Shown here: piece by piece, positions 4,801 to 61,393 of the stretch
Position numbering within the stretch: position 1 is the stretch's first letter
Layout of the letters: each line of letters begins with the position of its first letter
Assembly: GCA_018052735.1 (NCBI GenBank)
Contig: JAGPMT010000008.1
Coordinates: forward strand, 1 to 64,000
Direction of reading: 5' to 3'
From: Phycisphaerae bacterium
GTDB lineage: Bacteria > Planctomycetota > Phycisphaerae > Sedimentisphaerales > Anaerohalosphaeraceae
Length of the DNA: 64,000 nt
The notes under the pieces: generated by a model
Databases searched by the model: none
What the model saw: only the letters and a program-made list of their open reading frames with translations
Told to the model about the DNA's origin: nothing
Program-made: the position numbers and the translations under genes

Positions 4801-5517
4801 CTTAAGGGATGAGGGATTGTAAAGCTCTCCCTGAACAGTTAACTGCCAGCTTCCATTGCTTGCCCGTTGGGTCTTAATATGAAGCCCTTTCAGAGAGATT
4901 GCCGGAACATAGACAAGGTTGACATACCGGTACAGACCGCCGTAGAGATTAAAATCACTTAGATCAGATGGAATCATTTCAAGGTCGCGGGAGTTATCAC
5001 AGCGAATGGCAATGGGAATAAGTCCTTTTTTGGTAATGCGATCTTCAGAATCTTGCTTAAAATATGGTTTTTCTTTATACCGATTGACTGCATCTGTAAT
5101 GTCTGCAATAAATTCGTCATATCCGCCGATGTGAGAACAGACTTTTTCTGTATCGATATATACTTCTGTTTTCTGACCAGCCCCTTCAAAATGCAGAAGT
5201 ATGCGCCCGCCTGCAAAAGGATTGTCAATCTTTACTTGTGTGCGATACCAGCCGGGACCTTGATAATACCGCGTATCAGGATCAACGGCGTCATAAGCGT
5301 TAAAACAATGCGGCAGGACAACTTTTTGCCAAGCGCCCCAGTTATTGCTTAACTTGTCGCTGCGAAGTGCTTCCCAAATCCCGCCAATATCGCCTTTGAC
5401 AAATTCCCAATTCTGGGTTAATCGAGTAGAATATTCCGGGATTGCCGCAGTAGAGCCCGATAATAATAAGAACAAGTAAACTGCTGTTAAGAAAAGACAG
5501 GCCGAGCAGGAAGACAT
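1852..5517 (-). CDS. Secreted GH2 glycosidase fused to a PL38-like lyase domain
   Basis: About 1221 residues. A GTG ten codons upstream also fits, but the ATG at 5517 follows an AAGAAAGGA Shine-Dalgarno and opens directly into a hydrophobic signal peptide. The N-terminal half is a complete GH2 enzyme: sugar-binding jelly roll, Ig-like domain, and TIM barrel with the general acid/base Glu in WGLGNENDW (near 435) and nucleophile Glu in HVEWGGD (near 519). Accessory beta domains follow to about 840. Residues about 845-1221 repeat the lyase fold of the next gene, with WWPNPNTPDGLPY (near 890), NNHS (near 1045) and RTKPYGYS. GH2 members remove beta-galactose, beta-glucuronic acid or similar sugars; the exact sugar cannot be read here. 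A glycosidase and a lyase on one chain suggests coupled attack on a uronic-acid polymer. Confidence 0.85.
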   Translation of the reverse strand: MSSCSACLFLTAVYLFLLLSGSTAAIPEYSTRLTQNWEFVKGDIGGIWEALRSDKLSNNWGAWQKVVLPHCFNAYDAVDPDTRYYQGPGWYRTQVKIDNPFAGGRILLHFEGAGQKTEVYIDTEKVCSHIGGYDEFIADITDAVNRYKEKPYFKQDSEDRITKKGLIPIAIRCDNSRDLEMIPSDLSDFNLYGGLYRYVNLVYVPAISLKGLHIKTQRASNGSWQLTVQGELYNPSSLKENTTAKVQILDPDGTEILQSQTILDSQQNSAVLYQTQLQNPVLWSTTSPKLYTCIVTLISSSGQSAVSEQFGFRWFDFAPKGPFYLNGQRLLLHGTHRHEDHAGLAAALTEELIVKEFNLMKEMGVNFIRLGHYQQSRIALDMCDRLGILVWEEIPWCRGGLGGDRYKQQARDMLTAMIDQHRNHPSVIIWGLGNENDWPGDFEEFDKEKIRSFMAELNDLAHRLDPERKTAIRRCEFCSDIVDIYSPSIWAGWYGGKFTEYKQSSEREMAKVSHFLHVEWGGDSHAGRHTENPYEGLMDIQAAGKTEESGMDYLMTGGRARASRDGNWSESYICDLVDWHLKEQETMDWLTGTAFWIFKDFSTPLRPDNPIPYMNQKGAVERDLTPKESYYVYQSYWTDKPMVRIYAHNWPVRWGREDEKKLVKVYSNCPEAELFVNGKSEGIKQRNSQDFPAAGLRWLVGFKKGMNHLKVIARKDGTEVSDEIVFRYETRQWGKPARLVLKEADRTGDRATLRAALLDDKGIICLDARNVIRFGITGDGKLIDNLGTSRGSRIVQLYGGQAFIDVQLNQGKSVASASCQGCPTAFLELESIPDSINLRSLTAGQQALEMARLDRERILKLAESYLTIKPISLSDYPAPADSGAGPGDFYSMGDYWWPNPNTPDGLPYVQRDGQSNPANFSVHRLLVRQLRDAVAALAAGYGITADPRYAQKAVELLNTFFVNEHSRMNPHLLYAQAIPGISKGRGIGIIDTLHLAEVPLAVEALKNSKAMTPEILAGLKQWFADYTEWMTTHPNGLQEMNAANNHSVAFLVQLAAFARFTEDKEKLQLARERFKKIILPSQMDLDGSFPAELARTKPYGYSIFQLDNMALLCLLLSTEQDNLWDYTLPDGRGMKKAMSFLVDYLKDKSAWPYPPDIEHFEQWPVRQPCLLLAGYALNRPDYLTLFQTLNPDPADMEVRRNMAVTQPLLWLLRAEDVPLLQ

Positions 5518-5760
5518 GGGATTCCTTTCTTTGAAAAGTAGCTTCACAAAAATTCCATTCTAAAAGATTTATCCAAACTAAACAGATATCACCCGATAGG
5601 AAACGTTTCTTACAATGAATATAGAGATTTCATAAAAATAGACAAAGCGTAACCACAAAAATTTTAAAGAAAATATAGTCTGTGAAATTTTTTCTGCGAA
5701 AGATGTTAGAATTGATGGGTGATTAATGATGCACAGTAATGATAAACGCAGAATCTGGCT

Positions 5761-22662: not shown

Positions 22663-22764
22663 GCTGACCGTGTCAGCAAAAGCTGCATCATATAGATGGA
22701 TAATAACTACAAAACAGGTCGGGATAAAATTGACTTTAGACATGCTGAAAGAGAGAGAGGCATA

Positions 22765-25239: not shown

Positions 25240-27239
25240 CGGCAAAACGGCACAAGAAAAAGCCGATGGATAACACAGATAATATTATGGGCACAAAGTG
25301 TAGATTACGAATTCGCCAGCTGTTTTTGGGCGCAGCTGCAGTTTTGTCTTCGGTGTCGGCCTACACACAGGTTACGCTTGCAGCGGACGGCCCCGGCAGT
25401 ACTTACGAGCTGATTTCCAGTGTACTGGGCGGCTATCCGATAGAAGTTCCGGACTGCAGCCACCCGGAATTCGGACGGCATATTACGGAAGCATGGGACG
25501 ATATTCTGGGCAAGTATGTTTTTGTTTTTCATATCCATGTGACGCCCGACAATGACCGCTGCGTCAACTTTGACCGGCAGCGCAACGAGATTAAGACATA
25601 CGGACCTTCGCCTGCCTACCTCAAGGGCTACTACAATGACATTCACACCTACCGCTGGAAATTCAAACTCGATGCAGGATTTCAGCCCTCGCCCAATTTT
25701 ACGCATATTTTCCAGATCAAAGCCGGCGACGGTTCCGACAGCGATGCGCCGATTATCACCCTGACCCCCCGGTATGGAACGCCTCAAACGATGCAGCTTA
25801 TCTTTACCCCCTCTTCCGGCAGCAGCGGCGGGGGCACCAAGGACAATCCGCCGCTTGAGCCGTTTAAGGGTGAATGGGTCGAGGCGTATGTCCGGACGCT
25901 GTATGCGGAAAACGGCACGATCGACGTTGTGCTCACGCGGATCCGCGATGGCGCCATACTGATGTCTTACACGAACAACAACCTTGACATGTGGCGGGGC
26001 GATGCGACTTTTAATCGCCCCAAGTGGGGCATCTACCGCAGTTTGAACAGTTCGCAATACCTCCGCGATGAAGAGGTGCGTTTTGCCGACTTTTGCATCG
26101 CCAAGGGCAGCGATACATGTCCCTGCGACGAGAGATTCTTTCCTATCGATCCGGAAACGCCATTTGATCAGGAGCCGGCCAGCGGGGGTGACATTTTCTT
26201 TGAGGTCATTCCGGTTGGCGGGGTAACCATTCTGAATTATCAGTGGTTTGAAGTTGCCGGTTCGGAGGATGTGCCTGTTGGTACGAATTCACCGATGCTG
26301 ATCATTCCGGCCGCCGGCTATTCCGACACCGGCCGGAAGTTTTACTGCCGGATTACTGCGGACAAGGGAACCTTCTTCTCCCGCACGGCACAGATACGCT
26401 CACTGGAGACAGCCCTGATACTGCATCTTGCCTTTGATGACGGTACGGCCAATGATTCCTCCGGCAGCGGCAACCACGGCATACTCAACGGGGATCTGAC
26501 GTTTGTACAAGACCCTCAGCGCGGCAGGGTCATCAATTTTGATGGCGTAAACGGCAGCTACATCCGTATTCCCAACAGCCCTTCCCTCAATGCAGCGGCC
26601 GAACAAATCACGATTGCAATGTGGCTTTATACGGACACAACTGCGGTGCGTCAGTTAACTGAAAAAGGCGGAACCGGCGGTTCGGCCTGGTACATACCGC
26701 CTTGGGGTATCCGCATGGAAAGCGACCGCACCCTGCGTCTGAACTGGGGTAATGGTCTTCCCAACCCCCCAGGACCGCTGTATTCATCAGCGATTGAAGC
26801 CAACCGATGGACTCATGTGGCGATGACATACGATTCGACACTCCCGTTCAATCACCGCAAGTTTTATATCAACGGCGTACTGGATGCCGCCAGCGACTGG
26901 ACAGGCGGGGCTGCGGCTAATACCAATGACTTGTTTATCGGGACGGATTTCTACAACAATACCTCCCGCTGGGCATACCTCGGGCGGTTAGATGATATTC
27001 GCATTTATAATACTGCCCTTTGCGCCGGGCAGATCCGGCGTATTATGACCGGCGGTCCGCATGGGGATATTGATGGTGACGGCCGGGTGACGCTGGCTGA
27101 TTTCGCCTATGTCAGTGCCCAGTGGCTGCTGGACGGGGCAGTTGTTCTGTCAGCGGATATCTGGCCGGGCTGCGGCGACGGCCGGGTGAATATAGGGGAC
27201 CTAATGCTGATGGCCAGCCATTATATGGAGTCAAAATAA
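25236..27239 (+). CDS. Jelly-roll polysaccharide lyase-like protein with Ig-like, LamG and dockerin modules
   Basis: 667 residues; the start ATG overlaps the previous stop as ATGA. Residues about 20-50 act as the signal peptide. Residues about 60-290 resemble jelly-roll polysaccharide lyases related to heparin lyase I/PL20 (PF14099-like): HTYRWKFKLDAGFQPSPNFT, HIFQIKAG, ITLTPR, EPFKGEWVEAYV and PKWGIYRSL. That family link is from memory of the pattern and is moderate. An Ig-like segment (LNYQWFEV), a LamG domain (about 390-600; it supplies the unbroken sequence used to interpret the G8 frameshift) and a two-motif dockerin-like tail (GDIDGDGRVTLADF, GDGRVNIGDL) follow. It is likely to act beside the PL6 enzyme on the same polymer. 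Confidence 0.75.
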   Translation: MTAKRHKKKPMDNTDNIMGTKCRLRIRQLFLGAAAVLSSVSAYTQVTLAADGPGSTYELISSVLGGYPIEVPDCSHPEFGRHITEAWDDILGKYVFVFHIHVTPDNDRCVNFDRQRNEIKTYGPSPAYLKGYYNDIHTYRWKFKLDAGFQPSPNFTHIFQIKAGDGSDSDAPIITLTPRYGTPQTMQLIFTPSSGSSGGGTKDNPPLEPFKGEWVEAYVRTLYAENGTIDVVLTRIRDGAILMSYTNNNLDMWRGDATFNRPKWGIYRSLNSSQYLRDEEVRFADFCIAKGSDTCPCDERFFPIDPETPFDQEPASGGDIFFEVIPVGGVTILNYQWFEVAGSEDVPVGTNSPMLIIPAAGYSDTGRKFYCRITADKGTFFSRTAQIRSLETALILHLAFDDGTANDSSGSGNHGILNGDLTFVQDPQRGRVINFDGVNGSYIRIPNSPSLNAAAEQITIAMWLYTDTTAVRQLTEKGGTGGSAWYIPPWGIRMESDRTLRLNWGNGLPNPPGPLYSSAIEANRWTHVAMTYDSTLPFNHRKFYINGVLDAASDWTGGAAANTNDLFIGTDFYNNTSRWAYLGRLDDIRIYNTALCAGQIRRIMTGGPHGDIDGDGRVTLADFAYVSAQWLLDGAVVLSADIWPGCGDGRVNIGDLMLMASHYMESK

Positions 27240-27295
27240 AAGCAAGGCGTCCTGAATGGATTCTGTAATGATGAATAAAGAAAGGTTTTAAAACA

Positions 27296-28699
27296 ATGCA
27301 GACAAAGGCAATGATGGGGATTTTCGCATTTACGTTGGTTCTTGGGACGGTCGGTTGTGCTCACAGCAGCCAGAAGCTGCAGACACGCGAGCAGATAAAG
27401 AAGATCCGAATGGAGCAGTTTAACCAGCAGAAATTCGGGATGTTTATCCACTGGGGGCTGTATGCACTGCCGGCGGGCGAATGGAAAGGCAAGACTAATT
27501 ATGGCGAATGGATTATGCTGCAGGGCAATATCCCCTCGTCGGAGTATGAAAAATTTGCGCCGCAATTTAATCCCGTCAAATTCAATGCCCAAGAATGGGT
27601 GGCGCTGGCCAAGGACGCGGGAATGAATTATTTAGTGATTACCGCCAAACATCATGACGGATTCTGCATGTACGATTCAGCCCTGACCGAGTACGATATA
27701 GTGGATGCTACGCCGTTCAAGCGCGATCCGCTTAAAGAATTGGCGGACGAATGCAGAAAGGCGGGAATCATGTTTTGTACCTATTATTCAATTGTGGACT
27801 GGCACCATCCCGACTTTCCGCAGAAATATTCTCAGATTCGCCCGGAGTTTCCCGCCGGCTTTCACGGTGATCCGCAGGACAACGCCGACATTAAAAAGTA
27901 TGCCGCTTATATGAAAGGACAGGTTCAGGAATTGCTGACCAAGTATGGAGAAAACGGCATTATGTGGTTCGACGGAGGTGGTTCATTCAGGAATTACGAC
28001 CGCAAAACCCTGCTTGACGGCGAGGAATTGGTGAAGATGATTCATGCCCTGCAACCCGCCTGTCTGATTAATAACCGGCTGGGCTTTGGTTCTGACTACG
28101 GCACGCCGGAACAAAGCATCCCCGAAAGCACACTGGGCACAGCGTTTGAGGTTTGCATGACCCTGAACAGACACTGGGGATACAACAAAAATGACCATGA
28201 CTGGAAGGATGCCCAGACTGTAATTCGAAATCTGATCGATGTAGCCAGCAAGGGAGGCAATTATCTGCTCAATGTCGGCCCGACCGCCGAAGGTGTTATT
28301 CCTGAAGAATCCGTCAAGATTCTGAAAGAAGCAGGGCAGTGGCTGGAAGTTAACGGCCAAGCAGTTTACGGCACAACGGCCGGCCCCAGCAGCGCCAATA
28401 TCCGCATGAGACCAGCCGGCTGTATGACACAAAAGCCCGGCAAGCTGTTTTTGCATGTGTTCGACTGGCCGCAAAACCGCAAAATATTTATGGAGGGCAT
28501 GAAAGGCGGCATTGTCAAGCGAATTTATCTGCTGGCGGATAAAAATCAGACCCCGCTTAGCTATGAACCGTACGAGCGATCTTTGTTTATTGATGTTCCT
28601 GCCCAGTCGCCCAGTCCTTATGCGGGTGTTGTTGTAATTGAATATAACACCAGCCAAGCGATGGAGGAGAATGTTATTGAGCCGCTCACGATGGGATAA
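27296..28699 (+). CDS. GH29 alpha-L-fucosidase, predicted lipoprotein
   Basis: 467 residues. The N terminus has a lipobox-like LGTVGC, suggesting membrane anchoring. GH29 landmarks: [10 protein letters not shown] (near 48), [15 protein letters not shown] (near 118), GIMWFDGGG with the nucleophile Asp (near 222), and GGNYLLNVGPTAEG (near 320). Retaining GH29 enzymes remove terminal alpha-L-fucose. ATG 27296 follows AAAGG. Unlike its neighbours it has no dockerin-like tail, consistent with lipid anchoring replacing that route. It lies 56 bp after the lyase gene and 32 bp before the heparinase-like gene, so it is probably in one operon. Confidence 0.93.
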   Translation: MQTKAMMGIFAFTLVLGTVGCAHSSQKLQTREQIKKIRMEQFNQQKFGMFIHWGLYALPAGEWKGKTNYGEWIMLQGNIPSSEYEKFAPQFNPVKFNAQEWVALAKDAGMNYLVITAKHHDGFCMYDSALTEYDIVDATPFKRDPLKELADECRKAGIMFCTYYSIVDWHHPDFPQKYSQIRPEFPAGFHGDPQDNADIKKYAAYMKGQVQELLTKYGENGIMWFDGGGSFRNYDRKTLLDGEELVKMIHALQPACLINNRLGFGSDYGTPEQSIPESTLGTAFEVCMTLNRHWGYNKNDHDWKDAQTVIRNLIDVASKGGNYLLNVGPTAEGVIPEESVKILKEAGQWLEVNGQAVYGTTAGPSSANIRMRPAGCMTQKPGKLFLHVFDWPQNRKIFMEGMKGGIVKRIYLLADKNQTPLSYEPYERSLFIDVPAQSPSPYAGVVVIEYNTSQAMEENVIEPLTMG

Positions 28700-28731
28700 G
28701 GGTATTTTGAAATATACACGAGAGTAAAAAA

Positions 28732-31700
28732 ATGCTCACGATTCAGAACCTATTTAGTTGGCTAACGGTTGCGGCACTGCTGTACAGCGGAGTTGTAACG
28801 GCTTTAGCCGTTGAACCGCCGCATCCGATTTTGAGTATCCCCGGCAGTTCCAATCCGACTTTGGCCAACGCCATTATTAATAATTACACCGAAACGGAGT
28901 ATGTCAACAACTTCGTCCCCCGCCAATCGCCTCGGAATAATAGTTACGGCTTTGTGCCGGCAGTAGTTCCGGGGGATACGGGCTGGTCATGGAGTTCATC
29001 GACACCCAACCTGATTACCAGTACGCCCAGCGGGACGGTCTTTCCGACCACACCTGCGTATCCAATTTATTACGAAAATGTGCTGGTAACCAGCGGCAAG
29101 ACGCTGGCGATGCCGTATTATCTTCGAGCCGGCAGTTCGACGGCCAAGTCGATGGTGTTTGAACTGATCAATCACAATAAACGCAACAAACTGCGGAGCG
29201 ACCTGAATGTTTTAGCCCCCACGTACATGGCCAGCGGCAGCACCCATGCGACGCGCAACCAAGCCTACGCCCGCCGCATCGCTGTTGCACTGCTGGATTG
29301 GGCTGCATATATGCCGGATTATGTTATGACAGCCAAGAACAGCGCAACTTATATTAACGCCGGGCCGGACTATATCCTGTCCAGCGATTTACAGCGGGCC
29401 AGTGACCATAACGGGCTGGCCCACGAATGGGCGGATGATGAATTGTTTGCCTTTGATGCAATATACGACAGTCCGGCGCTGGCGCAATTGAGCATAGAAA
29501 AGGGCTTTGATGTCCGGCAGTATATTACAGATAATTTGTATTGCAACGAAGGCGATTTCATCGTTTACCGTGTGCCGATCAATGTGGCGATTTCAAGCAA
29601 TCTGTCGGGGCCCTATACTGTGCTGGCACTTGTGGCGCGAGTCCTGAACCGGCCGGATTACATCGACTATATGGACCGGTATTTGGATGCAACTGTGACC
29701 CGAAAAATCCAGCGGGACGGGACGCTGAGTGAAGGGATGGGTTATTCCATCGGCTACATCAACGAGAATCTCGACGCCGCGCGAAACACACGGAATTATT
29801 TTTTGACTCGGCCTGCCGACACCCCCGAATTGCAGGCCATCAGTGTCCGTACTAATACTTATGTCAATATTCTCGAATACGGCCGGGCGCAGTGGCAGGC
29901 TGCCAGCTTGCCCAACGGTCAGCTTCCCTCATTCGGCGATACGCCGTTTAAGACATACTTTGCTGCCCGCAACAGCGGCACCTCCGTCCTGCTGCCTGCC
30001 TACGGTTCGGTTTCAATGGGTGCCGGCAGCAGCACAGCTGTACAGCTCAATCAGTGTTTCGCCGGCGATAACAACCACATGCGTTCCGATACCTGTGCGT
30101 ATGTATTGTGGGCTTTTGGTAATGAAGTTTTGGGCAATGTGCGCTACCACAACGGCACACCGGGCCGACAGTTTACTGAACAAATCTTGGCCTATAATGC
30201 TGTTACTATCGACCGCAGCGATATGGCCAGTCCCTCAGCCAGCACCTATGGCAACGGCGATTTGACATTGTACGAGCCGGGGCAGGACGGTCTGGCTGTG
30301 ACGGAAATTGACGGCCAGAGGGCCTACCATAACAAGGCCTCGCGCTACCAGCGCATCATGCTGCTCAATACGATGGATTTGACACGTCCCTATGCGGTAG
30401 ATATATTCAGGGTGACGGGGGGCACAACACACGATTATGTCTGGCACGGTTCAATTCGATATGACCAAACTGCCCAATGCAGTTTTGCTTTGACGCCGAT
30501 GCCCGGCGAGACACCCATGCTGGAAGGATCTGAAACATGGTATGAACCGACCAGTTCGGGTTCTTCATTTCCCTATTACGGTTTTTTCCGTGACATGAGC
30601 AGCAATCCAGCGCCGGGCAATTTTCAGATCAGCTATCTGGATACCAACCGCTCCTCGCCGCGTGACACCAAACTGTGGATGACCTCTGAGCCGGAACAAT
30701 ATACCGTCTATATGGGCCGCACGCCTGTCCCGGCGCGTGTGGACAGCGAACCTATCAACTGGTGGGTCAATGGTCTGTGGCGGCCGTCGACAATTATCCG
30801 CAGGCGGACTGCCTCCGGTCCGCTGCATGACTTATTCGTCAGCGTTATTGAACCGCTCAACAACGGTGTTAGTCGAATTGCATCCGTCGAACGCATTCCG
30901 ATGGCTGGTTCGCAACTGGAATCAGCGGGCTTGCGTGTTATGTTTACCGATGGGCGGGCGGATACCTATATTGTGAACCTGCACAATCCGCAGGTGGCCG
31001 GCGCCAATACCGGCTCCGCTACGGTGACAACCGCCGATGGAAGCTATTCGCTGACGGGGCGCATCGGAATGCATACAACAGGCAGCGGCAATGCGCGGGT
31101 ATGGGTGATGAACGCAAGCAGTTTCCAGTACCCCGGCGGTTCGTTTATGCCGTCGAACCTATATTATTCCGGCCAGATTACAGGCCAAACCCGCATCCTG
31201 AAAGGTGACAGTTATGATGCGCTGATTACCGATACATCGCTGCCGCTGGGTACGGTTCTGCGCGGCAAATACCTCTCGATGACGTTTGGGACCCTCTCCG
31301 GAAGCGGCACAACAGGCATCAGCCAGATGTTTGAGATTGATCAGGTTATGCAATCTGACGGCCAATATCATATCCAGCTTCCCAGCGACCATTATCTGGA
31401 TATTACGGATGCCGTTTCCATCAGCGGCAGCGGTGCTGATATCTGGGCAGCGGCAGACCAATTTCATTACGCGTGGCAATCACAAACTGGCGATCTGACA
31501 CTTACCGCACGGGTATTGAGCCAGACAAATACCAACGCTTGGGCTAAATCCGGCGTTATGATTCGTGAAAGCAGCGCCGCCAACTCGCGCTATGTCGGCC
31601 TGTATATAACGCCGAGTAATGGCGTGAGTATGCAGTACCGCGACGCCGCCGGCGCAAATGCCATTGACTTTGCCCGTACTGCCGGCCTGACTGCCCCGCG

Positions 31701-33333
31701 CTGGCTGCGCTTGGTACGGTCGGGCAATACTTTCATCGGTTATCAGTCCGTCGACGGGATAAACTGGATACAGGTTGGATCTTCCGGTGTCAGCATATCT
31801 ATGCCGGCTGCCGTCCTGACGGGTCTGGTCGTTTGTTCGCATAATAACAGCGTTCTGAACACGACTACTTTCGATAATATCAGTGCAGAGCTGCCCTTGA
31901 CCAGTGCAGATATTGGTGCGGTTGGCCTGGCTGGAAGTACGGCATACAGCGACATTACGATTGAGCAAGTTGCCCCGCTGCGGACGTTTAACGGGGTCAG
32001 TACATTTGAGATTGCGCTAAGTGCTTCGCGGGCGGCTGCACCCCCCGATACCCCAACAGACCTGCGCGCCATTGCCGGCAATGGGCAGGTAACGCTGAGC
32101 TGGACAGCGGCTGCAGCGAGTTATATCGTTAGACGGTCAGAGATTAGCGGGGGGCCTTACGTTATCGTCGCAAGCCCGATGACGGCCTATTATACGGACA
32201 CAGATGTTGTTAACGGCACGACGTACTATTATGTGGTTGCAGCGGTCAATGAGGCGGGACAAAGTTCCGATTCTCTGCAGGTCAGCGCAACGCCGAGTGC
32301 CTCGGCGCCAACGGGACTGGTGGCGCGATTTGCGTTCGATAACGGTACGGCTGCCGATTCCTCCGGTTATGGAAATCACGGCATCCTTTATGGCGGCTTG
32401 ACATCGATACACGATGCCCAGCGAGGTAATGTCCTCAGCTTTGACGGTGTTAACGGCAGCTACATACGGGTCCCCAGCAGCCCCTCGCTCAATGCGGTGG
32501 CCAAACAAATCACAATTGCTATGTGGCTTTATACCAACACAACGGCTGTCCGCCAACTGATTGAAAAGGGCGGAACCAGCGGTGCGGCATGGTATACTGC
32601 GCCGTGGGGGATCCGACTGGAAACCAACCGCCAGCTTTTGTTGAAGTGGGGCAATGCAGATTTTCTGAAATCGACCGCTATTCCGTCCAATACGTGGACG
32701 CATGTGGCGATGACTTACGATTCGACGCTGGGAACAAACAACACCAAGTTTTATATTAATGGACTTCCGGATACGCAGGCCCACTGGACAGGGGCAGCGG
32801 CTCCCAACAGCTACGATCTGTTCATCGGTACCGATTTTTACAACAATACCTCCCGCTGGGCCTATCTGGGCTGCATGGAAGATGTCCGCATCTATAATCG
32901 GGCTTTAACCCCGGGTGAAATTGCCGAACTGACAACAGCACCCGCCGCCCCAACGGGCCTTGCGGTGACCGGCGGCAACAGTCAGGTCGATCTGGCGTGG
33001 AATGCGTCCCCGGGTGCAGTCAGCTATGCGGTCAAACGCTCGACTGTTCCCGGCGGGCCTTATACAACAATTATTGAAGGGATAATGACACTCCATTACA
33101 GTGACAGCACTGTTGTAAACGGCACGAGATATTATTATGTCATTTCTGCTTCCAACAGTGCCGGCAATGAAAGCACCAACAGTGCAGAAATGTCGGCTGT
33201 GCCGCACCGTCCGGGTGATCTGACACTTGACAATGCCGTAAATATGGACGATATGGCTGCGTTATCTGCCGGCTGGCAGACGTTGTATGAGATTGAAACC
33301 ATGTTTGAAATAGCTGCCAACTGGCTTGATTAA
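28732..33333 (+). CDS. Giant heparinase II/III-like lyase with DUF1349-like, FN3 and LamG modules
   Basis: 1533 residues with an N-terminal signal (about 1-27). A toroid domain (about 40-410, including GTLSEGMGYSIGYI and LPSFGDTPFKTYF) and a beta-sandwich half (about 430-840, including NHMRSDTCAY, YNAVTIDRSDM and YAVDIFRVTGGTTHDYVWHG) match the heparinase II/III superfamily (PL12/15/17/21 clan), lyases of acidic polysaccharides. A DUF1349-like jelly roll (about 913-1053, KSGVMIRESS), FN3 (about 1106-1187), LamG (about 1197-1400), a second FN3 and a short degenerate EF-hand tail (GDLTLDNAVNMDDM, EIAANWLD) follow. The tail has lost most calcium ligands in its second motif. Family-level substrate cannot be read. 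The next gene starts 18 bp later. Confidence 0.82.
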   Translation: MLTIQNLFSWLTVAALLYSGVVTALAVEPPHPILSIPGSSNPTLANAIINNYTETEYVNNFVPRQSPRNNSYGFVPAVVPGDTGWSWSSSTPNLITSTPSGTVFPTTPAYPIYYENVLVTSGKTLAMPYYLRAGSSTAKSMVFELINHNKRNKLRSDLNVLAPTYMASGSTHATRNQAYARRIAVALLDWAAYMPDYVMTAKNSATYINAGPDYILSSDLQRASDHNGLAHEWADDELFAFDAIYDSPALAQLSIEKGFDVRQYITDNLYCNEGDFIVYRVPINVAISSNLSGPYTVLALVARVLNRPDYIDYMDRYLDATVTRKIQRDGTLSEGMGYSIGYINENLDAARNTRNYFLTRPADTPELQAISVRTNTYVNILEYGRAQWQAASLPNGQLPSFGDTPFKTYFAARNSGTSVLLPAYGSVSMGAGSSTAVQLNQCFAGDNNHMRSDTCAYVLWAFGNEVLGNVRYHNGTPGRQFTEQILAYNAVTIDRSDMASPSASTYGNGDLTLYEPGQDGLAVTEIDGQRAYHNKASRYQRIMLLNTMDLTRPYAVDIFRVTGGTTHDYVWHGSIRYDQTAQCSFALTPMPGETPMLEGSETWYEPTSSGSSFPYYGFFRDMSSNPAPGNFQISYLDTNRSSPRDTKLWMTSEPEQYTVYMGRTPVPARVDSEPINWWVNGLWRPSTIIRRRTASGPLHDLFVSVIEPLNNGVSRIASVERIPMAGSQLESAGLRVMFTDGRADTYIVNLHNPQVAGANTGSATVTTADGSYSLTGRIGMHTTGSGNARVWVMNASSFQYPGGSFMPSNLYYSGQITGQTRILKGDSYDALITDTSLPLGTVLRGKYLSMTFGTLSGSGTTGISQMFEIDQVMQSDGQYHIQLPSDHYLDITDAVSISGSGADIWAAADQFHYAWQSQTGDLTLTARVLSQTNTNAWAKSGVMIRESSAANSRYVGLYITPSNGVSMQYRDAAGANAIDFARTAGLTAPRWLRLVRSGNTFIGYQSVDGINWIQVGSSGVSISMPAAVLTGLVVCSHNNSVLNTTTFDNISAELPLTSADIGAVGLAGSTAYSDITIEQVAPLRTFNGVSTFEIALSASRAAAPPDTPTDLRAIAGNGQVTLSWTAAAASYIVRRSEISGGPYVIVASPMTAYYTDTDVVNGTTYYYVVAAVNEAGQSSDSLQVSATPSASAPTGLVARFAFDNGTAADSSGYGNHGILYGGLTSIHDAQRGNVLSFDGVNGSYIRVPSSPSLNAVAKQITIAMWLYTNTTAVRQLIEKGGTSGAAWYTAPWGIRLETNRQLLLKWGNADFLKSTAIPSNTWTHVAMTYDSTLGTNNTKFYINGLPDTQAHWTGAAAPNSYDLFIGTDFYNNTSRWAYLGCMEDVRIYNRALTPGEIAELTTAPAAPTGLAVTGGNSQVDLAWNASPGAVSYAVKRSTVPGGPYTTIIEGIMTLHYSDSTVVNGTRYYYVISASNSAGNESTNSAEMSAVPHRPGDLTLDNAVNMDDMAALSAGWQTLYEIETMFEIAANWLD

Positions 33334-33351
33334 AACATGAAAGGATACACG

Positions 33352-36300
33352 ATGGGAAAAGGAATTTCGATGGTTTTTGTGACGACTGTTTTTTACGCTG
33401 TATTATTGTGGGCCGTCCCGGCAATATCGCAAACAGATGCCGATATTCTTTCAATACCGGGAATTGAACTGACCGAACGGCAAAAGCAGCCGGATTTGGC
33501 TTGGTGGCGGCAGTCAATGCAAAATCGTGACCAGCGGCTTACTTGGTGGAGAAAAGCACGTTTTGGGATGTTTATTCATTGGGGGGTGTATTCTGGACCT
33601 GGCGGGGAGTGGAAAGGTCAAAAAGTCAGCGGCTATGCCGAACACCTGATGCGAAAATGCAAGATTCCCCGTCAGGAATATCTGGAACAGGTCGCCCGCA
33701 AATTCAATCCGGTAGACTATGATCCAGCCGAATGGGTGGCGCTGGCTAAAGCCGCCGGCATGGGGTATATTGTTATTACTGCCAAGCACCACGACGGCTT
33801 TGCAATGTACGATTCGGCGGTGTCTGATTTTGATATCGTGGATGCAACGCCTTACGGCAAGGATATTCTTGCGCGTCTGCGGGACGAATGCCGCAAACAA
33901 GGTATCCAATTCGGTGTGTATTACTCCCATGCCTTTGACTGGGAGCACCCCAATGCTCCCGGCAATGACTGGGAATATCAAAATCCCGGCGGCGACCTTG
34001 GTTTGTGGGGCGGTGTGCGCTGGTATGACCAGCATCCAGAAATGGTCGAACGTATCCGCAAATATGTTGATGAAAAATCAATTCCCCAAATCCGAGAATT
34101 GATTAACAATTATCATCCCTCGATTATCTGGTTCGATACATCCAGCAAGCTGCCGGGTTCTGAGCTTCTCCGGATTCTCAAAGCCGTACGGCAGGAAAGT
34201 AACGACGTTATCGTCAACAGCCGTGTAGGCGGCGAAGGCGGCAATTACGGCGACTACCGATCCACGGCAGACAGACCCGCCGAATTTGTACCCGTTCGAG
34301 AGTCCGACTGGGAGGGTATTCCCACGACGAATGAATCTTATGGGTACAGTAAGCATGATAAAAGCCACAAGCCGGCAGCACATTTTATTCAGCTTCTTGC
34401 CAAAGCTGTTTGCCGGGGCGGAAACCTGATGATGAATATAGGCCCTATGGGCAGCGGCAAATTTGCTTCCGAAGATATTGAGATTCTCAACGGCATCGCT
34501 GAGTGGATGAAATATTATAGGCATACTGTGATTGAAACAGATCGTTCCCCCATTCCTTTGCAGAATTGGGGAGCGGTGACCCGAAAGGGCAATACCCTTT
34601 ATCTTCATATATTTGATTGGCCTGAGGACCAGATTCTGCTGCTGGGCGGACTAAAAAATAGGGTGCGTTCTGTTAACCTTCTCGATAGAAGTGAAAAAAA
34701 GACTCTTTCTTTTGAACGTCTTAATCCCTTTGATATTCAGATTTCTCTGCCCCCTGCGCCGCCGGATAAAGTCGATAGTGTTGTTGAAGTTGTTTTTGAA
34801 GGCACTCCTGATGGGGCCGCTTCCCGTCTTCTGGATTCCCGTGTTCCAAATCGTCTTCATGTCTTTGACAGCGATTTGCACGACCGCGTCCGCTTTATGG
34901 ACGGCAAAACAAATCGGGACTGTACCCAAGAGTGGAATGATCCGCGGGCTGTTATCAGCTGGAAAGCACGTCTGATACAAGAAACAGTTTTCGAACTGCA
35001 ATTGATTAGCGTCGAAAATACTGCTGGCCAGGGACGCTATGAATTAAAAGTGGATAACCAGATCTTTTCGGAACCTGTAAGCAAAGACAGTGCCGTTACA
35101 ACGGCGGGACGCATAACGCTGGCGGCGGGCGAACATGCTATTTCTATTCGGCCGCTTGATGTCGGCCAAGGCGAATTAACCCGTCTTCGCCGGATGGACC
35201 TGATTCCAATTAAAAATCCTCCGCTGAAAATGTGGTACTCAAAACCTGCACAGAAATGGGAAGAGGCCTTGCCCATAGGCAATGGCCGGCTGGGAGCAAT
35301 GGTATTTGGCGGTTCAAAGAAGGAGCACCTGCAGCTTAATGAAGATACATTGTATTCCGGGTATCCGGGTTATCGAGATGTTAAATTGAACATTTATGAA
35401 AGTCTGCCGAAGGTTGTTGAAATGCTGAATGCCCGCCGTTTTGCGGAAGCAGATGATTTTATCACAAAAAACTGGCTCGGCGCAGGTCAGGCCTGTTATC
35501 AGCCGCTGGGGGACTTATATATTGATTTTGAGCATAGTGAACAGGTTTCAAATTATAGGCGCCAGCTGGATATTTCGTCGGCGTTATGCCGGATTTCCTA
35601 CACGGCCGATAATATCCTGTATCAGCGGGACATATTTGCAAGTTATCCGGATAATGTCATTGTTATTCGTCTGACCGCAGACAAACCTTCTTCTTTGAAT
35701 TTCTCCATACGGATGGATTCGCCGCATCCGACTGCAGCAGTCAGGGCAGATGATGCAAGACATCTGGAAATGACGGGACAAGTTCCCGGCTTGGTGCTTC
35801 GGCGTACACTCAAATGGGTTGAAGACCGGAACGAAACGTGGAAATATCCTCAAATCTGGGACGAAAACGGCCGGCGCAGAGATCCGGAAAAAACCATCTT
35901 TTATGGGGACGCTATAGGCGGTGAAGGAATGTTTTTCCATGCTGCTGTTTCAGTGTCATTACGCGGGGGACAAACGAAGGCTGCTGCCGATCGTCTTACT
36001 GTAAATGGTGCAGATGAAGCCGTCATTCTCTTCAATGCAGCCTCCAGTTTTAACGGCTTTGATAAAAATCCTGTTCGCCAGGGTCTGGATGCAGCTGCAA
36101 AATCAAAAGGTTTTCTTAGAGCGGCAGGGCAATACAGTTATAAGGATTTGCTTGGACGCCATACAGCGGATTACAAGGCGTTGTTCGATCGTGTCTGGCT
36201 TGATTTGGGCGGCTGGAATGAGTATGCCGAGATGCCGACGGATCAGCGGATCGCTCAATTTGGTCAAGTCCGGGACCCGATGCTGATAACCTTGTATTTT

Positions 36301-37611
36301 CAATTTGGGCGTTATCTTATGATTTCCGGTTCACGACCCGGCACTCAGCCCCTTAACCTGCAGGGCATATGGAATCCCCATATTGTTCCGCCGTGGGCCA
36401 GTGCCTATACCTTGAATATTAATACTGAAATGAATTACTGGCCGGTGGACATCTGCAATTTGTCTGAATGTTTTGAGCCGCTGGCTCAGATGATTCAGGA
36501 ATTAGCAGTCGACGGCCGTAAAGTCGCCAGCGAAGTGTATCATGCTGACGGCTGGGTCTCTCACCACAACACCTCCATATGGCGGGATGCACAGCCGGTT
36601 GATAATGTGACCCGAACCTCATTTTGGCCAATGAGTTCGGGCTGGCTTTGTCTGCCCCTTTATGACCATTATTTGTTTACTGGAGATGAAGATTATCTCC
36701 GCAGCAGGGCATATCCTCTTATGAAGGGGGCCTGTGAATTTTATCTCGATTGGATGGTTGAAGACTCACAGGGGTTTCTTATAACACCGGTTTCTACTTC
36801 TCCTGAAAATGACTTCTTCTATACAGATGCCGCAGGCAAACAACAGCGAGCCGGCGTTTGTAGGGGAACGGCAATGGATATGGCTATTATCCGGGAGCTG
36901 TTTGCCAATACTATTGAGGCCTCCCGGCGTCTTCAAGTGGATGCAGAATTCCGATCGCTTCTTCAGAACAAATTGCCAAAACTGCGGCCTTATCAGATTG
37001 GTTCTCAAGGACAGCTGCTCGAGTGGCAGGAGGAATTTGCCGAACCTGAGCCTGCGCATCGTCATATTTCCCATCTTTTTGGTCTCCATCCCGGCACTCA
37101 AATTACCCCGCTGAAGACACCCGAACTGGCCAATGCGGCACGCAAAACACTGCAATTGCGGGGCGATGGCGGCACCGGCTGGAGCAAGGCATGGAAAATT
37201 AATTTCTGGGCACGGCTGGAAGACGGCGATCACGCCTTCAAAATGCTCTGTGAACAGATCACCAAGTCAACACTGACGAACTTGTTTGATACACATCCTC
37301 CTTTTCAGATTGACGGCAACTTTGGCGGCACGGCGGGGATAGCAGAAATGCTTCTTCAGAGTCATGCGGGGCAGGTTGTGCTTCTTCCGGCTCTGCCGTC
37401 GGCATTATCCAGCGGGTCTGTTCGCGGATTACGGGCTCGCGGGGGTTTCGAAATAGAAATGGATTGGACGGATGGATGCCTTACATCGGCCCGGATTAAA
37501 TCCCTGCTCGGCAATCCGCTTCATCTTCGATACCGGAGTAAAAGCGCGGCGTATCATACCCAGAGCGGCCAGATGCTGACAGTGAACTCGAACCTTGAAG
37601 AAGTGCAATAA
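33352..37611 (+). CDS. Bifunctional GH29-GH95 alpha-L-fucosidase fusion
   Basis: About 1419 residues. ATG 33352 lies just after GAAAGGA; the ATG at 33337 would place that site inside the gene. The signal peptide ends AVPAISQ. GH29 (about 45-480): [25 protein letters not shown] and IIWFDTSS with the nucleophile Asp near 258. A beta-sandwich linker (about 490-615) follows, then a complete GH95 domain (about 623-1415): [32 protein letters not shown] (near 1022), EWQEEF with [13 protein letters not shown] (near 1222) and FQIDGNFGG (near 1316). GH29 works with retention and GH95 with inversion; both remove alpha-L-fucose or, for some GH95, L-galactose, usually with different linkage preference. 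Both catalytic sets look intact. Confidence 0.9.
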
Positions 37612-37643
37612 AATCGTTTTCTTTTGAAAGGAGTTGTATCAGG

Positions 37644-39959
37644 ATGTTAAAGAAATGTGTTTTACTATTTGTATTGACAGCAGTATTTAGCAGTGCATGC
37701 TTTGTACTGGCTGTTCCTGAAACGGCAAAACTGCAGATTGAAAATATGCATACAGCTGTTGTCTTTGACAATCAGACCAAAAATGCAGCTGTCTATTCCA
37801 AAGATGCTCAGAAAACATATATTTCGTCTATCCAATTTAAAGAAGCATTAGCCACTGCACACAGAAATGATCTGAACGACACGGGATTCGGCAAAGGGCA
37901 GGCTATAGAGATTGTGACCGTCTCCGGCGATCGTCAGAGGCTGGCTCTTTATGATAGGCTTCCGTTTGTGTTTATGCAGAGCACAATCCATAATGCGTCA
38001 GCTGCAATTAAAACAATTCCATATTATGCACCTTGCGTGCTCAAACTTGATCTGCAAAAATCCCCCCGTCAGCTAAAGGCACACGGCACAGCCGGACTTA
38101 CCGCGGTGGACAAGAAATCCAACAGTGGAAGCTACGCATTTTTATCCATTGTTGATCCCGATACCCGAAAGGGTGTCGTTGCTGCGTGGCTGACTAACGA
38201 GCGCGGCAGCGGCGTCTTGTTTTCGGATATTCAGGGTACATCAGTAATTCTTGAGCCGCGGATTGACTATGGGCGCCTGCAGCTGCAGACCGGCCAAAGC
38301 GAAACTCTTGAAACCTTGCTGGTTGGCTGGTTTGATGATGTACGCTTGGGCCTCGAAGCCTATGCAGAGGCGGTGGCTCAGAAGTATGCTATCGTTTTGC
38401 CCCCGCAGCCGACAGTATATTGCACATGGTATCATGCGGGAGCATCGAATGAAAAGGATCTTATTCAGAATGCTGCCTTTGCTAAAGAACATCTGGCCCC
38501 CTTTGGTTTCTCGGTTGTTCAGATTGATGACAAATGGCAGGATGGCAAGTCCACAAATGGTCCCCGAAAAAACTTTACCCAAGTCCAGCCCAACGGGCCT
38601 TATAAATCGGGCATGAAGACCGCAGCGGATAATATTAAAAAACTCGGATTGACACCCGGCATCTGGTTTATGCCTTTTGCGGGGACTTTTGATGATCCTT
38701 ATTTTGCAGACAAACAATATCTGTTTGCTAAGAAAGACGGCAAACCGTTTGATACCAAATGGGGCGGCACCTGTTTTGATCTAACCAATCCTAAAACACA
38801 GCAGTATGTTTATGACATTGTTCATCGGATTGCTCATGAGTGGGGTTATCAGTATTTCAAAATGGATGGATTATATACTGGAACAGCTGCCCGTCTGATG
38901 TATATCAATGATAAATATGCTGATGACCAGCTCGGTGAATCTGTTCTCTACGACCCGTCGATGACTCATATCCAGTCTTATCGCACAGGTTTACAGATTG
39001 TCCGCAAGGCGGCCGGCAGGGACATTTTTTTCCTTGGCTGCTGCATTCCCCAGAATATGCGTTCCTTTGCTCCTGCAATGGGGCTGGTCGATGCAATGCG
39101 CATCGGCCCTGACAACAAGCGTACATGGGAAGCGATGCTTCGCGGTCCCCGATACGGCAGCAAAGTCTATTTCCTGCACAGACGGGTTTGGTATAATGAT
39201 CCTGACCCGATTTATGTGCAGGACGATGTTCCTCTTCAGCAGGCTATAACCTTATGTTCCTGGGTTACTATTTCGGGGCAATTAAACGCCAGCAGTACGG
39301 ATTATACCAAACTCCCCCCGGAACGATTGGATATCCTTAAGCGTACCATGCCTGCACACAATCTCACACCCCGGCCGGCGGATATTTTTGAGCAGGAGAT
39401 CCCTCGCATTTGGCTGCTGAGTGATGAACGTTCCGGGGTCCGTCGCGATGTTATTGCATTGTATAATTGGGACGATAAAAATACTGCAGAGATTCACTAT
39501 CCGCTTCGTAAAATCGGGCTGGATGGAGAAAAGCAGTATATCGGCTTCGATTACTGGGCCAATACATTCCTTGAACCATTCAGCGGCTCTGTCAAGGTCT
39601 CTTTGCCGCAGGCAGGCTGCAGCATCTTGTCTGTTCGCCCGGTAAGTTCGAATCCGATGCTGCTGAGCACCTCCCGCCATATTACACAGGGAATAGTGGA
39701 TGTCAAAGAAGAAAAATGGGACGAATCACTCAAAACGCTGACGGGTGTCAGCGAGGTCGTCGCCAATGATTCCTACGAGCTGCGCATTGCAGCAATGAAA
39801 GGAAATAGTATCTGGCAACTCAAATCTGTCAGTGTGTCAGAACCAGATCGGCAGGCCGGAACTGCTATAAGAATAATCAGCCAGAATGGGCCTTTTATCC
39901 GTTTGTTGATTGAGACAAAAGAAAGTCGGCAAGTCCGCTGGTATGCGGAATTCAATTAA
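37644..39959 (+). CDS. Clan GH-D alpha-galactosidase-like enzyme (GH36-like)
   Basis: 771 residues with signal peptide MLKKCVLLFVLTAVFSSACF, preceded by AAAGGAG. An N-terminal beta domain (about 25-260) is followed by a TIM barrel with WYHAGASNEKDL, VVQIDDKWQDG, PGIWFMPF, YFKMDGLY (nucleophile Asp near 405) and DAMRIGPDN (acid/base Asp near 486). This arrangement fits GH36-type alpha-galactosidases and relatives such as alpha-N-acetylgalactosaminidases. It lies 32 bp after the GH29-GH95 gene and 24 bp before GH105, inside the enzyme operon. It has no dockerin-like tail. Confidence 0.82.
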   Translation: MLKKCVLLFVLTAVFSSACFVLAVPETAKLQIENMHTAVVFDNQTKNAAVYSKDAQKTYISSIQFKEALATAHRNDLNDTGFGKGQAIEIVTVSGDRQRLALYDRLPFVFMQSTIHNASAAIKTIPYYAPCVLKLDLQKSPRQLKAHGTAGLTAVDKKSNSGSYAFLSIVDPDTRKGVVAAWLTNERGSGVLFSDIQGTSVILEPRIDYGRLQLQTGQSETLETLLVGWFDDVRLGLEAYAEAVAQKYAIVLPPQPTVYCTWYHAGASNEKDLIQNAAFAKEHLAPFGFSVVQIDDKWQDGKSTNGPRKNFTQVQPNGPYKSGMKTAADNIKKLGLTPGIWFMPFAGTFDDPYFADKQYLFAKKDGKPFDTKWGGTCFDLTNPKTQQYVYDIVHRIAHEWGYQYFKMDGLYTGTAARLMYINDKYADDQLGESVLYDPSMTHIQSYRTGLQIVRKAAGRDIFFLGCCIPQNMRSFAPAMGLVDAMRIGPDNKRTWEAMLRGPRYGSKVYFLHRRVWYNDPDPIYVQDDVPLQQAITLCSWVTISGQLNASSTDYTKLPPERLDILKRTMPAHNLTPRPADIFEQEIPRIWLLSDERSGVRRDVIALYNWDDKNTAEIHYPLRKIGLDGEKQYIGFDYWANTFLEPFSGSVKVSLPQAGCSILSVRPVSSNPMLLSTSRHITQGIVDVKEEKWDESLKTLTGVSEVVANDSYELRIAAMKGNSIWQLKSVSVSEPDRQAGTAIRIISQNGPFIRLLIETKESRQVRWYAEFN

Positions 39960-39983
39960 ACCGGCAGATACAGGAGAATAGCG

Positions 39984-41279
39984 ATGAACAGGATGTATCA
40001 GCTACGATATAGAGCCAACTATAGTGCAGGTATTATATTTTTTATTGCATCCGCTTTTCTGTATGCGGCTTCTGCCCTTGAAGATGCGGCCGCAACAGCG
40101 GTGCCGGATGCGCATTTAGATTACATACCGGGGCAGGCGCCGGCTTTCTGGTCGATCGCGGCGGCCGAAACCGTGATGGCACGCTGGCCGGATTACTCGA
40201 AGGCCTATTTTAATGCATGGACCTATGTGAACGGTTATATGCTGTGCGGATTTGAGCGCCTGTATCGCGACACAGGCGAACGCCGCTACTTCGATTACAT
40301 CCAGCGCTATATCGACCTATTTGTGGACGAGAACGGCGCTTTCCGCAGTGTTCTCAACAGCAAAGGCAATCTCCAGAAAATATCTTTTACCAATCTTGAT
40401 AATATGATGACGGGCAACACACTGGTGATGCTCTATGAATATACCCGGGATGAACGATACAAAAAAGCAGCAGACACGATTCGCCGGGCTCTGGATGATT
40501 ATCCCCGCAACAGCGATGGCGGTTTCTGGCATGCCCGGGGAATGCACGGCCAGATGTGGATTGACGGCATTTTTATGGGCCAAATGTTTTTAACACGTTA
40601 TGGAAAATCTGTCGGCGACAGCCGTTATTGCTGGGACGAAGCGGCTAGGCAGATTACTGTGTATGCCAAACGTGCCCAGCGTGATGATACAGGGCTTTAC
40701 CTGCATGGTATTTATGAACCCGGTCACGGTGACAGGGTCTGCCGCTGGGCTGATCCCAATACAGGCCTTTCGCCGGAGGTTTGGAGTGAGGGATTGGGCT
40801 GGTATGCTTTGATTGTCGTCGAAACACTGGCTGATATGCCCAAAGATCATCTCCAGCGGCCGGAGATAGAAGCAATCTTCCGCCGGCTGGCTGTTGGTCT
40901 GAAACGCACGCAGGATGTTCCGACAGGTCGATGGTTCCAAGTGGTGGACAAAGGCGATCGGCCTGACAATTGGACGGATAATTCCGGCAGTGCGATGTTT
41001 ACCTATGCACTCCAAAGAGGCATTGAACTGGGATTGATTGACAAAAACGAATTTGAACCGGTTGTTAGGAAGGGCTATCACGGCATTGTAGAGAATGCAC
41101 GAATCAATGCTAAAGGACTTGTGGATATATACAGTGCCTGCGATGGTTTAGGAGTGCAGGCCAGTTATGATAAGTATATTAATTACAAAAAAATGGTCAA
41201 TGCCAAAGAAGCAGTGGCCGGCTTCCTCTGGGCAACAGAAATAGTGGAACGGCCGCAATTGGAGAAAATGAAAAAATGA
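39984..41279 (+). CDS. GH105 unsaturated uronyl hydrolase
   Basis: 431 residues, exported (hydrophobic about 13-33); an AGGAGA site precedes ATG 39984. It is an (alpha/alpha)6 barrel of the YteR/YesR type: LDNMMTGNTLVMLYEYT, GMHGQMWIDGIFMGQMF with the general-acid Asp (near 193), and SPEVWSEGLGWYALIVVETL. GH105 enzymes remove the delta-4,5-unsaturated uronic acid left at the non-reducing end after lyase attack, so it fits downstream of the four lyase-type proteins in this cluster. Its stop overlaps the longest frame of the next gene by ATGA, although the real next start is probably 33 bp further on. Confidence 0.9.
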   Translation: MNRMYQLRYRANYSAGIIFFIASAFLYAASALEDAAATAVPDAHLDYIPGQAPAFWSIAAAETVMARWPDYSKAYFNAWTYVNGYMLCGFERLYRDTGERRYFDYIQRYIDLFVDENGAFRSVLNSKGNLQKISFTNLDNMMTGNTLVMLYEYTRDERYKKAADTIRRALDDYPRNSDGGFWHARGMHGQMWIDGIFMGQMFLTRYGKSVGDSRYCWDEAARQITVYAKRAQRDDTGLYLHGIYEPGHGDRVCRWADPNTGLSPEVWSEGLGWYALIVVETLADMPKDHLQRPEIEAIFRRLAVGLKRTQDVPTGRWFQVVDKGDRPDNWTDNSGSAMFTYALQRGIELGLIDKNEFEPVVRKGYHGIVENARINAKGLVDIYSACDGLGVQASYDKYINYKKMVNAKEAVAGFLWATEIVERPQLEKMKK

Positions 41280-41311
41280 AATGGAAACGATTTAACGAAA
41301 GGAGTGCGATT

Positions 41312-42931
41312 GTGAACAGGTTATTCCAAATGCTCGCATGGACGGTTGCCGCAGGTATTTTTGCATCATCCGTATCGGCCAATACAGATTCTGCCGGAAC
41401 TGCCAGTGCTGATTCGCGAATGTCTGAAATCCCGATCCAGAAGGGGAAGGCCGCATGGAATGTATGCGATTTCGGTGCTGCGGGAGACGGCAAGGCCCTC
41501 GACAGTCCGGCCATCGACAAGGCTATCGAGGCCTGTGCACAGGCAGGCGGAGGAACTGTCTATCTTCCAGCCGGCACCTATCTGAGCGGAAGTATTCATC
41601 TTAAGAGCAATGTTAATCTGCATCTGGGTGCCGGTGCAGTCATTTTGGGCGCCCCTCAAGAAATGAATGCCTATGACTTTACAGAACCTTGGGAGGGAAC
41701 AGCTTATCAGGATGGCGGACATACCTATTTCCATAACAGTTTGATATGGGGCGAAAATCTTACGAATGTATCAATAACCGGCTATGGAATGATTAACGGC
41801 GGGGGGCTTGTCCGTTCCGATGGTTTACTGGACCGGATGTGCGGTTTTTCAACTTGGAATAAGCCCGAAGCGGCGTCTGCAGGCAGAGAAATGCAGCCTG
41901 TCCGGCTGGGCAACAAGGCCATTGCGCTGAAGTTATGCCGAAACGTCTTGATGCGCGATATTACCATATATCACGGCGGCCATTTTGCGATTTTGGCGAC
42001 CGGATGCGATGGATTGACCATCGACAATGTAACGATTGACACCAATCGCGACGGCATCGATATTGACTGCTGCCGCAATACAACTGTTTCTAACTGCCGA
42101 ATCAACGCCCCCGGCGATGATGCGCTGTGTCCGAAAAGCAGTTTTGCCTTAAAGAAAAATGTCATTACGGAAAATCTGACGATTGTCAATTGTCAGGTTT
42201 CAGGTTTTGAAGAAGGTACTCTGCTTGATGGCACGATGAAACCTAGCCGAGTCAAGAACGGCCGCATCAAGTTTGGTACGGAAGCCAACGGCGGTTTTCG
42301 GAATGTAACAGTGTCCAATTGCACTTTCCGCGGCTGTCGAGGGCTGGCGCTGGAGGAAGTTGATGGCGGCATTATGGAAAATATTGTCATCAATAACATT
42401 GCAATGATGGATGTTGCTGCATATCCGATTTATATTACAACCGGAAAACGCAACCGCGGACCGAATGTAACCGAGCCGAGCCGCATGCGGAATATTCTGA
42501 TTTCAAATGTAATAGCAACAGGCATTGAGCCCATGAGCGGCATTCAGATTACGGGACTTCCGGAACAGCCCATAGAAGGGGTCCGGTTGGATAATATTTG
42601 GCTTGTCTTCAATGGCGGCGGCACGAAAGAAGATGCGGCACGGATTCCCCCGGAACTGGGAACTGGTTATCCGGAACCGCGCAATATCGGGGTAATGCCT
42701 GCTTACGGTGTATTTGCACGGCATGTTCGGGACTTGGAACTGCAGAATATAAAAATAAGCTTTCTGAAGGAAGATCTCCGGCCGGCAATGGTTTGTGTAG
42801 ACGTTGATGGCCTTGAAATCGACAGCTTTAAAGCGCAGCTTGCTGCAGAAGTCCCTGCGGCTCGGTTTGAGGATGTTCGCCGGCTGATTATTCGCAATTC
42901 TCCTGTGCTGGATAAAGTGAGCGTAAAATAA
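41312..42931 (+). CDS. GH28-family glycosidase (polygalacturonase-like)
   Basis: About 539 residues from GTG 41312, chosen because AAAGGAG sits at correct spacing and the signal peptide (MNRLFQMLAWTVAAGIFASS...) follows at once; ATG 41276 would add 12 hydrophilic residues. A beta helix begins with WNVCDFGAAGDGKALDSPAI. GH28 marks are NRDGIDIDCC and GDDALCPKSS (Asp-Asp near 268). The usual downstream G-H-G catalytic His region reads instead RIKFGTEANGGFRNV, so that histidine is not seen. GH28 members hydrolyse galacturonan or rhamnogalacturonan backbones or remove terminal galacturonic acid. The altered motif suggests a divergent subgroup with another uronic-acid or deoxysugar linkage. Confidence 0.85.
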   Translation: MNRLFQMLAWTVAAGIFASSVSANTDSAGTASADSRMSEIPIQKGKAAWNVCDFGAAGDGKALDSPAIDKAIEACAQAGGGTVYLPAGTYLSGSIHLKSNVNLHLGAGAVILGAPQEMNAYDFTEPWEGTAYQDGGHTYFHNSLIWGENLTNVSITGYGMINGGGLVRSDGLLDRMCGFSTWNKPEAASAGREMQPVRLGNKAIALKLCRNVLMRDITIYHGGHFAILATGCDGLTIDNVTIDTNRDGIDIDCCRNTTVSNCRINAPGDDALCPKSSFALKKNVITENLTIVNCQVSGFEEGTLLDGTMKPSRVKNGRIKFGTEANGGFRNVTVSNCTFRGCRGLALEEVDGGIMENIVINNIAMMDVAAYPIYITTGKRNRGPNVTEPSRMRNILISNVIATGIEPMSGIQITGLPEQPIEGVRLDNIWLVFNGGGTKEDAARIPPELGTGYPEPRNIGVMPAYGVFARHVRDLELQNIKISFLKEDLRPAMVCVDVDGLEIDSFKAQLAAEVPAARFEDVRRLIIRNSPVLDKVSVK

Positions 42932-44898: not shown

Positions 44899-44946
44899 GC
44901 AGGGGATGCTTTATGTATGTTGAAAATGTATGAACAGGAGCACAAT

Positions 44947-61250: not shown

Positions 61251-61393
61251 ATCAGTAAAAATACCTAAATTCCATTAAATAAAAAAGTAACAAGAAAAGT
61301 TCTTGTTTGAAAACGCTGCAGATTTTATCCTTCTACATGAAGGCAAATGTTGAGAAATATTTTGTTCAAATAAACTTATCTTGGAGAAAGACA

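Follow-up and report, generated by a model that had tools for sequence, protein, structure and literature searches.

A probable lineage-specific fusion of complete GH29 and GH95 glycosidases in a Phycisphaerae bacterium

A single gene at 33352..37611 (+) of the window, i.e. the whole 64,000-nucleotide stretch of DNA that was analysed, encodes a GH29 module, a CBM35/CBM6-like domain and a GH95 module in one protein. Two complete exo-acting glycosidases that stem from one polysaccharide-degrading enzyme set have probably been joined here in a genuine gene fusion specific to the lineage. The gene is delimited by its open frame, its Pfam domains and an upstream AAAGGA. The frame at 33337-37611 (+) has no internal stops and yields 1424 amino acids when counted from the first ATG. 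As the Shine-Dalgarno-like AAAGGA is located about 6 nt upstream of the ATG at 33352, this start (1419 amino acids) appears likelier than 33337; residue numbers below follow the 1424-residue count and are converted to the 1419-residue count by subtraction of five. The original prediction of GH29 and GH95 within one 1419-residue protein is borne out by the frame, by Pfam and by the residue alignments. A phmmer search against the PDB returned the same two blocks, with E-values down to 1e-195 for GH95 matches and 1e-75 for GH29 matches, while an NCBIfam search of the fusion protein gave no match. By appearance, the N-terminal sequence ([27 protein letters not shown]) resembles a Sec signal.

The GH29 module with its C-terminal beta-sandwich spans residues 41-490 (33457..34806, +), as judged from PF01120, PF16757 and alignment to solved GH29 structures. 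The Alpha_L_fucos profile PF01120 is matched nearly over its full length (residues 60-394, profile positions 17-343 of 345, E 5e-78), and Fucosidase_C (PF16757) gives a weak match at residues 415-480, under its Pfam cut-off. The nucleophile aspartate is D267 in a WFDT motif, which aligns with WFDT, WFDM or WYDY of solved GH29 enzymes. E326 sits in a Trp-Glu motif, and the acid/base residue of GH29 is subfamily-dependent and aligns poorly in GH29-A (PMC10154630, PMC9548408). The same GH29 family and the same extra beta-sandwich are found in standalone alpha-L-fucosidases of GH29 that bear a CBM-like domain at the C-terminus, namely in the planctomycete genomes G031 and G034, in Chitinophagaceae and Sphingobacteriaceae, in the solved structures 9rzy, 9rzx and 9s0x and, by fold, in FucWf4 (9pnj). 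In the catalytic region the identity amounts to 76% with G034/G031 and to 55-59% with the standalone GH29s of Bacteroidota. Unlike the fusion, these proteins stop after the CBM-like domain (at about 620-640 residues) or carry a GH88 domain, and no GH95 was attached to any GH29 of the standalone type among the relatives examined. The GH88 case is L037 13823-16900 (+) from Flaviaesturariibacter, where the same GH29-CBM type is fused to GH88; in the Niastella locus L090, GH88 is the gene directly following GH29.

The segment between the two catalytic modules, residues 482-626 (34780..35214, +), was assigned as a CBM35/CBM6-like beta-sandwich based on alignment, AlphaFold2 and Foldseek. It matches the C-terminal domain that is usual in the standalone GH29 relatives, even though Pfam recognised no family in it. 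An AlphaFold2 model computed from the window sequence and its relatives shows a jelly-roll beta-sandwich (pLDDT 85, pTM 0.81), and Foldseek relates it to the GH29-like fucosidase FucWf4 (E 6e-8), to a GH26-CBM35 protein (1e-7) and to the CBM35 2vzp (3e-6). The CBM35/CBM6 matches include a CBM35 solved with glucuronic acid, and the modelled fold points to a putative carbohydrate binder. Because residues 482-626 form a domain and not a linker, the layout of the protein is GH29, CBM35/CBM6-like domain, GH95.

The GH95 module (35215..37608, +) comprises an N-terminal sandwich, an alpha/alpha barrel and a C-terminal sandwich, as seen with PF14498, PF22124 and PF21307 and in alignment to 4ufc and 7kmq. 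All three domains are present in order between residues 632 and 1409: Glyco_hyd_65N_2 (PF14498) at 632-906 (E 7e-67), Glyco_hydro_95_cat (PF22124) at 934-1339 (E 4e-176) and Glyco_hydro_95_C (PF21307) at 1341-1409 (E 2e-20). E1157 in SPEN and D1326 in QIDG are conserved in alignments to 7kmq, 2rdy, 4ufc and 8zbv. Equating by motif only, we take E1157 to correspond to the general acid E566 of AfcA and D1326 to its conserved Asp D766; the catalytic Asn pair of AfcA is N421/N423. N1027 and N1029 align with N372 and N374 of BACOVA_03438 (4ufc), and T1025 with T370, in the published numbering of that enzyme (PMC4491172). The same three-domain build and active-site motifs recur in standalone GH95 proteins, i.e. 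the homologue in G033, XacAfc95 (7kmq), BH0842 (2rdy), BACOVA_03438 (4ufc) and AfcA (2eab), which, unlike the fusion, start with a leader of their own and are not preceded by a GH29 module.

Most GH95 enzymes act as alpha-1,2-fucosidases, and the family also contains some L-galactosidases and some members of relaxed specificity (PMC10154630). The GH95 half could be an alpha-L-galactosidase, in which case the protein would release L-galactose in addition to fucose rather than cleave two fucose linkages. This alternative, which overlaps with our preferred explanation insofar as the latter admits either L-fucose or L-galactose as the GH95 sugar, is considered unlikely. It draws on the equivalence of T1025 with T370 of BACOVA_03438, a residue in contact with O6 of L-galactose in that enzyme (PMC4491172). 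However, this Thr is also present in the fucose-specific XacAfc95 and in Blon_2335, and a T395H exchange in XacAfc95 left the sugar preference unchanged (PMC8245568). T1025 as a marker of L-galactosidases was therefore dropped. The sequence does not discriminate between L-fucose and L-galactose as the sugar of the GH95 half, nor does it reveal the linkage preference of either half.

A second alternative holds that one half is a degenerate passenger, so that only one of the two fucosidases works. Fusion partners can decay as a matter of general knowledge, and the acid/base residue of the GH29 half lacks an assignment by sequence. Still, both sets of domains are full-length with high Pfam scores and uninterrupted by stops, the GH29 nucleophile and the GH95 catalytic residues are kept, and the branches leading to intact homologues are short, which renders a passenger quite improbable.

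The preferred reading of a real fusion of two complete enzymes is supported by the junction ([11 protein letters not shown]; 35215..35232, +), which was located by comparison with standalone homologues. In the fusion, IPIK gives way to NPPLKMW at exactly the point where the standalone GH29s of G031 and G034 end (..EMLPIR). These nearest GH29 relatives are separate 626-residue proteins from the same family, and the nearest GH95 relative, likewise from the same family, is a separate 842-residue protein in G033 with 64% identity to the GH95 half. In phylogenetic trees the GH29 half groups with the G031/G034 proteins (support 99); for the GH95 half, the G033 protein is the partner (support 98). 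A PL6-type gene directly precedes the GH29 gene in G031 and G034 and the GH95 gene in G033, and the PL6 proteins of all three loci are 66-71% identical to that of the window. The leader of the G033 protein, about 40 residues long, has left no trace in the fusion, and there is almost no linker at the join. That a lost stop codon or a chimeric contig has artificially united neighbouring genes is very improbable: the fusion is known from one genome only, a draft assembly of 70 contigs, and a locus with GH29 and GH95 in the same frame and a single TAA between them does exist (L029 1351-5235, +), but a lost stop would have left the GH95 leader in place, whereas here it is cleanly lost and the join runs domain to domain, GC and third-position GC (GC3) are even across it, and the nearest relatives of both halves belong to the same family.

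The fusion or its halves were searched for in 98 order-level relatives, in 392 Planctomycetota, 345 Bacteroidota and 240 Verrucomicrobiota (large phylum surveys in which scoring covered the top two candidates of each genome, so that distant fusions could be missed) and in 72,556 plasmid records. No second GH29-GH95 open reading frame appeared among the matches listed or among the long GH29 and GH95 frames of the fetched loci, be it in relatives or in other phyla; this is the outcome of the search for the same architecture in other genomes that the original prediction had called for. None of the plasmid matches covered 80% of the fusion protein, and a survey of the middle domain in the 392 Planctomycetota gave only weak matches elsewhere among the matches listed. 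The prediction had also named a prior biochemical report of this exact fusion as grounds for refutation, and none was found in the open literature, where the sole match was a table cell naming two families. As far as our tools see, the architecture is new within the surveyed data and both halves belong to ordinary, known families.

The clade is rich in other multi-catalytic proteins with GH29 or GH95, and GH29-GH95 is one more combination. Other fusions among the relatives are GH29-GH29 (L106, L176), triple GH29 (L175), GH95-GH95 (L143), GH9-GH95 (L145), esterase-pectinesterase-GH95 (L138), GH20-GH29 (L170) and GH2-GH29. They resemble the window protein in joining complete enzymes in one secreted-type protein and differ from it in their partners, none combining GH29 with GH95. 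The two GH95 modules of L143 2328-7373 (+) lie in a 1682-residue frame of a planctomycete of the same family, and the three GH29 domains of L175 2152-7032 (-) in a 1627-residue frame. The proteins encoded by L138 1073-5182 (+) and L145 663-4577 (+) suggest pectin- and glucan-linked roles for their respective GH95 modules.

In the window, the fusion gene is part of a co-directional gene run (22696..42931, +) with gaps of -4 to 56 bp, which encodes in order a PL6/chondroitinase B-like protein, a LamG-dockerin protein, a GH29, an unknown LamG-fn3 protein, GH29-GH95, an alpha-galactosidase-like protein, a GH88 and a GH28-like protein. At 1852..5547 (-) Pfam identifies a second fusion, in which GH2 is joined to the alginate-lyase family PF05426; it is 71% identical over 1202 residues to a corresponding fusion in G033, and its GH2 part is 55-62% identical to GH2 genes found beside GH29 and GH95 in Bacteroidota. 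GH2 and the PF05426 lyase are separate genes near GH29 and GH95 in Bacteroidota and one protein in the planctomycete window. Among 80 GH95 loci that were fetched, a sample drawn by GH95 matching, there are 12 in which a GH29 of this type and a PF05426 lyase lie no more than about 10 kb from GH95. All of these are from Bacteroidota, and GH2 is present in 11 of them, L057 being the exception. The Niastella locus L090 shows the row SusC, SusD, an unmatched gene, GH2, GH95, GH31, PF05426, GH29 and GH88. As in the window, relatives of both halves thus occur near GH2, lyase and GH88; unlike in the window, they are separate genes of a Sus-type locus accompanied by SusC and SusD, neither of which was found in the 64 kb. 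With GH29 as the anchor, G737 displays the order GH2-GH95-PF05426-GH29 again, and G517 has GH2-PF05426-GH29 together with PL6 and a GH27 that is 55% identical to that of the window. No GH95 was present within the 19 kb looked at in G517, nor in two GH29-anchored stretches from Verrucomicrobiota, one of which is short.

Because GH29, GH95, PF05426 and GH2 cluster recurrently, the GH29 and GH95 types are attributed to a shared glycan, and the gene neighbourhoods make it most likely that both halves act on one uronate-containing, fucosylated polymer. By hypothesis, the fusion might remove two linkages from the same side chain. A more specific version, a dual de-capping enzyme for an undescribed uronate-containing glycan with two neighbouring terminal caps (L-fucose plus L-galactose, or two fucose linkages), is conceivable yet doubtful. 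If true, the set of GH2, PF05426 lyase, GH29, GH95 and GH88, often with PL6, would define the degradation pathway of that glycan in Bacteroidota and planctomycetes.

In the mechanism we propose, a secreted GH29 fucosidase with a CBM35-like C-terminal domain would have gained a leaderless GH95 module right after its last residue, and both halves would be active. The GH29 half would be a retaining enzyme that releases alpha-L-fucose or a close analogue, and the GH95 half an inverting one that releases alpha-L-fucose or alpha-L-galactose. Both catalytic halves may be anchored to the polymer through the CBM-like domain, and their fusion would bring the two de-capping activities together at one site in constant proportion. 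De-capping might precede or accompany the action of the uronate lyases (PF05426, PL6), GH88, GH2 and alpha-galactosidase-type enzymes of the locus. Fusions indicate enzymes that work on one substrate, and the GH29-GH95, GH2-lyase and bacteroidotal GH29-GH88 fusions link members of one conserved enzyme set. The fusion leaves the knowledge of the GH29 and GH95 families unchanged and is chiefly useful in drawing attention to this set. Moreover, it provides a ready-made two-module fucosidase in which a retaining and an inverting enzyme are joined and can be compared with their mixture.

Separate GH29 and GH95 genes at 27296 and 61307/61394 had been proposed to give flexibility. Both genes exist according to Pfam, but the idea that the GH95 provides flexibility on the same side chain is not supported. 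The GH29 at 27296 lies in the same gene run as the fusion and falls into a different GH29 clade of the tree. The GH95 at 61307 is separated from the cluster by a block of genes unrelated to carbohydrates (SpoIIE-like phosphatase, topoisomerase VI A subunit, ArgRS, H+-PPase, ArgJ). It is most closely related to a different set of proteins, with 60-68% identity to L064, L130, L132 and others. As it lies outside the cluster and has different relatives, it probably serves another substrate. Within the intervening block, the topoisomerase VI A subunit (50416-51510, -) is a Spo11-like Toprim protein in a bacterial genome. Directly upstream of the fusion, 28732-33333 (+) encodes a secreted-looking protein of 1533 residues that contains LamG and fn3 and ends in a dockerin-like part. 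Over its first 850 residues, sequence comparison gave no match to a Pfam family or to a solved structure, and this region might represent an unrecognised family of lyases or hydrolases. Finally, a short protein at 44917-45966 (+) shows only a weak GH29 match (E 5e-7) and shares 60% identity with the product of a gene at the border of the G033 locus.
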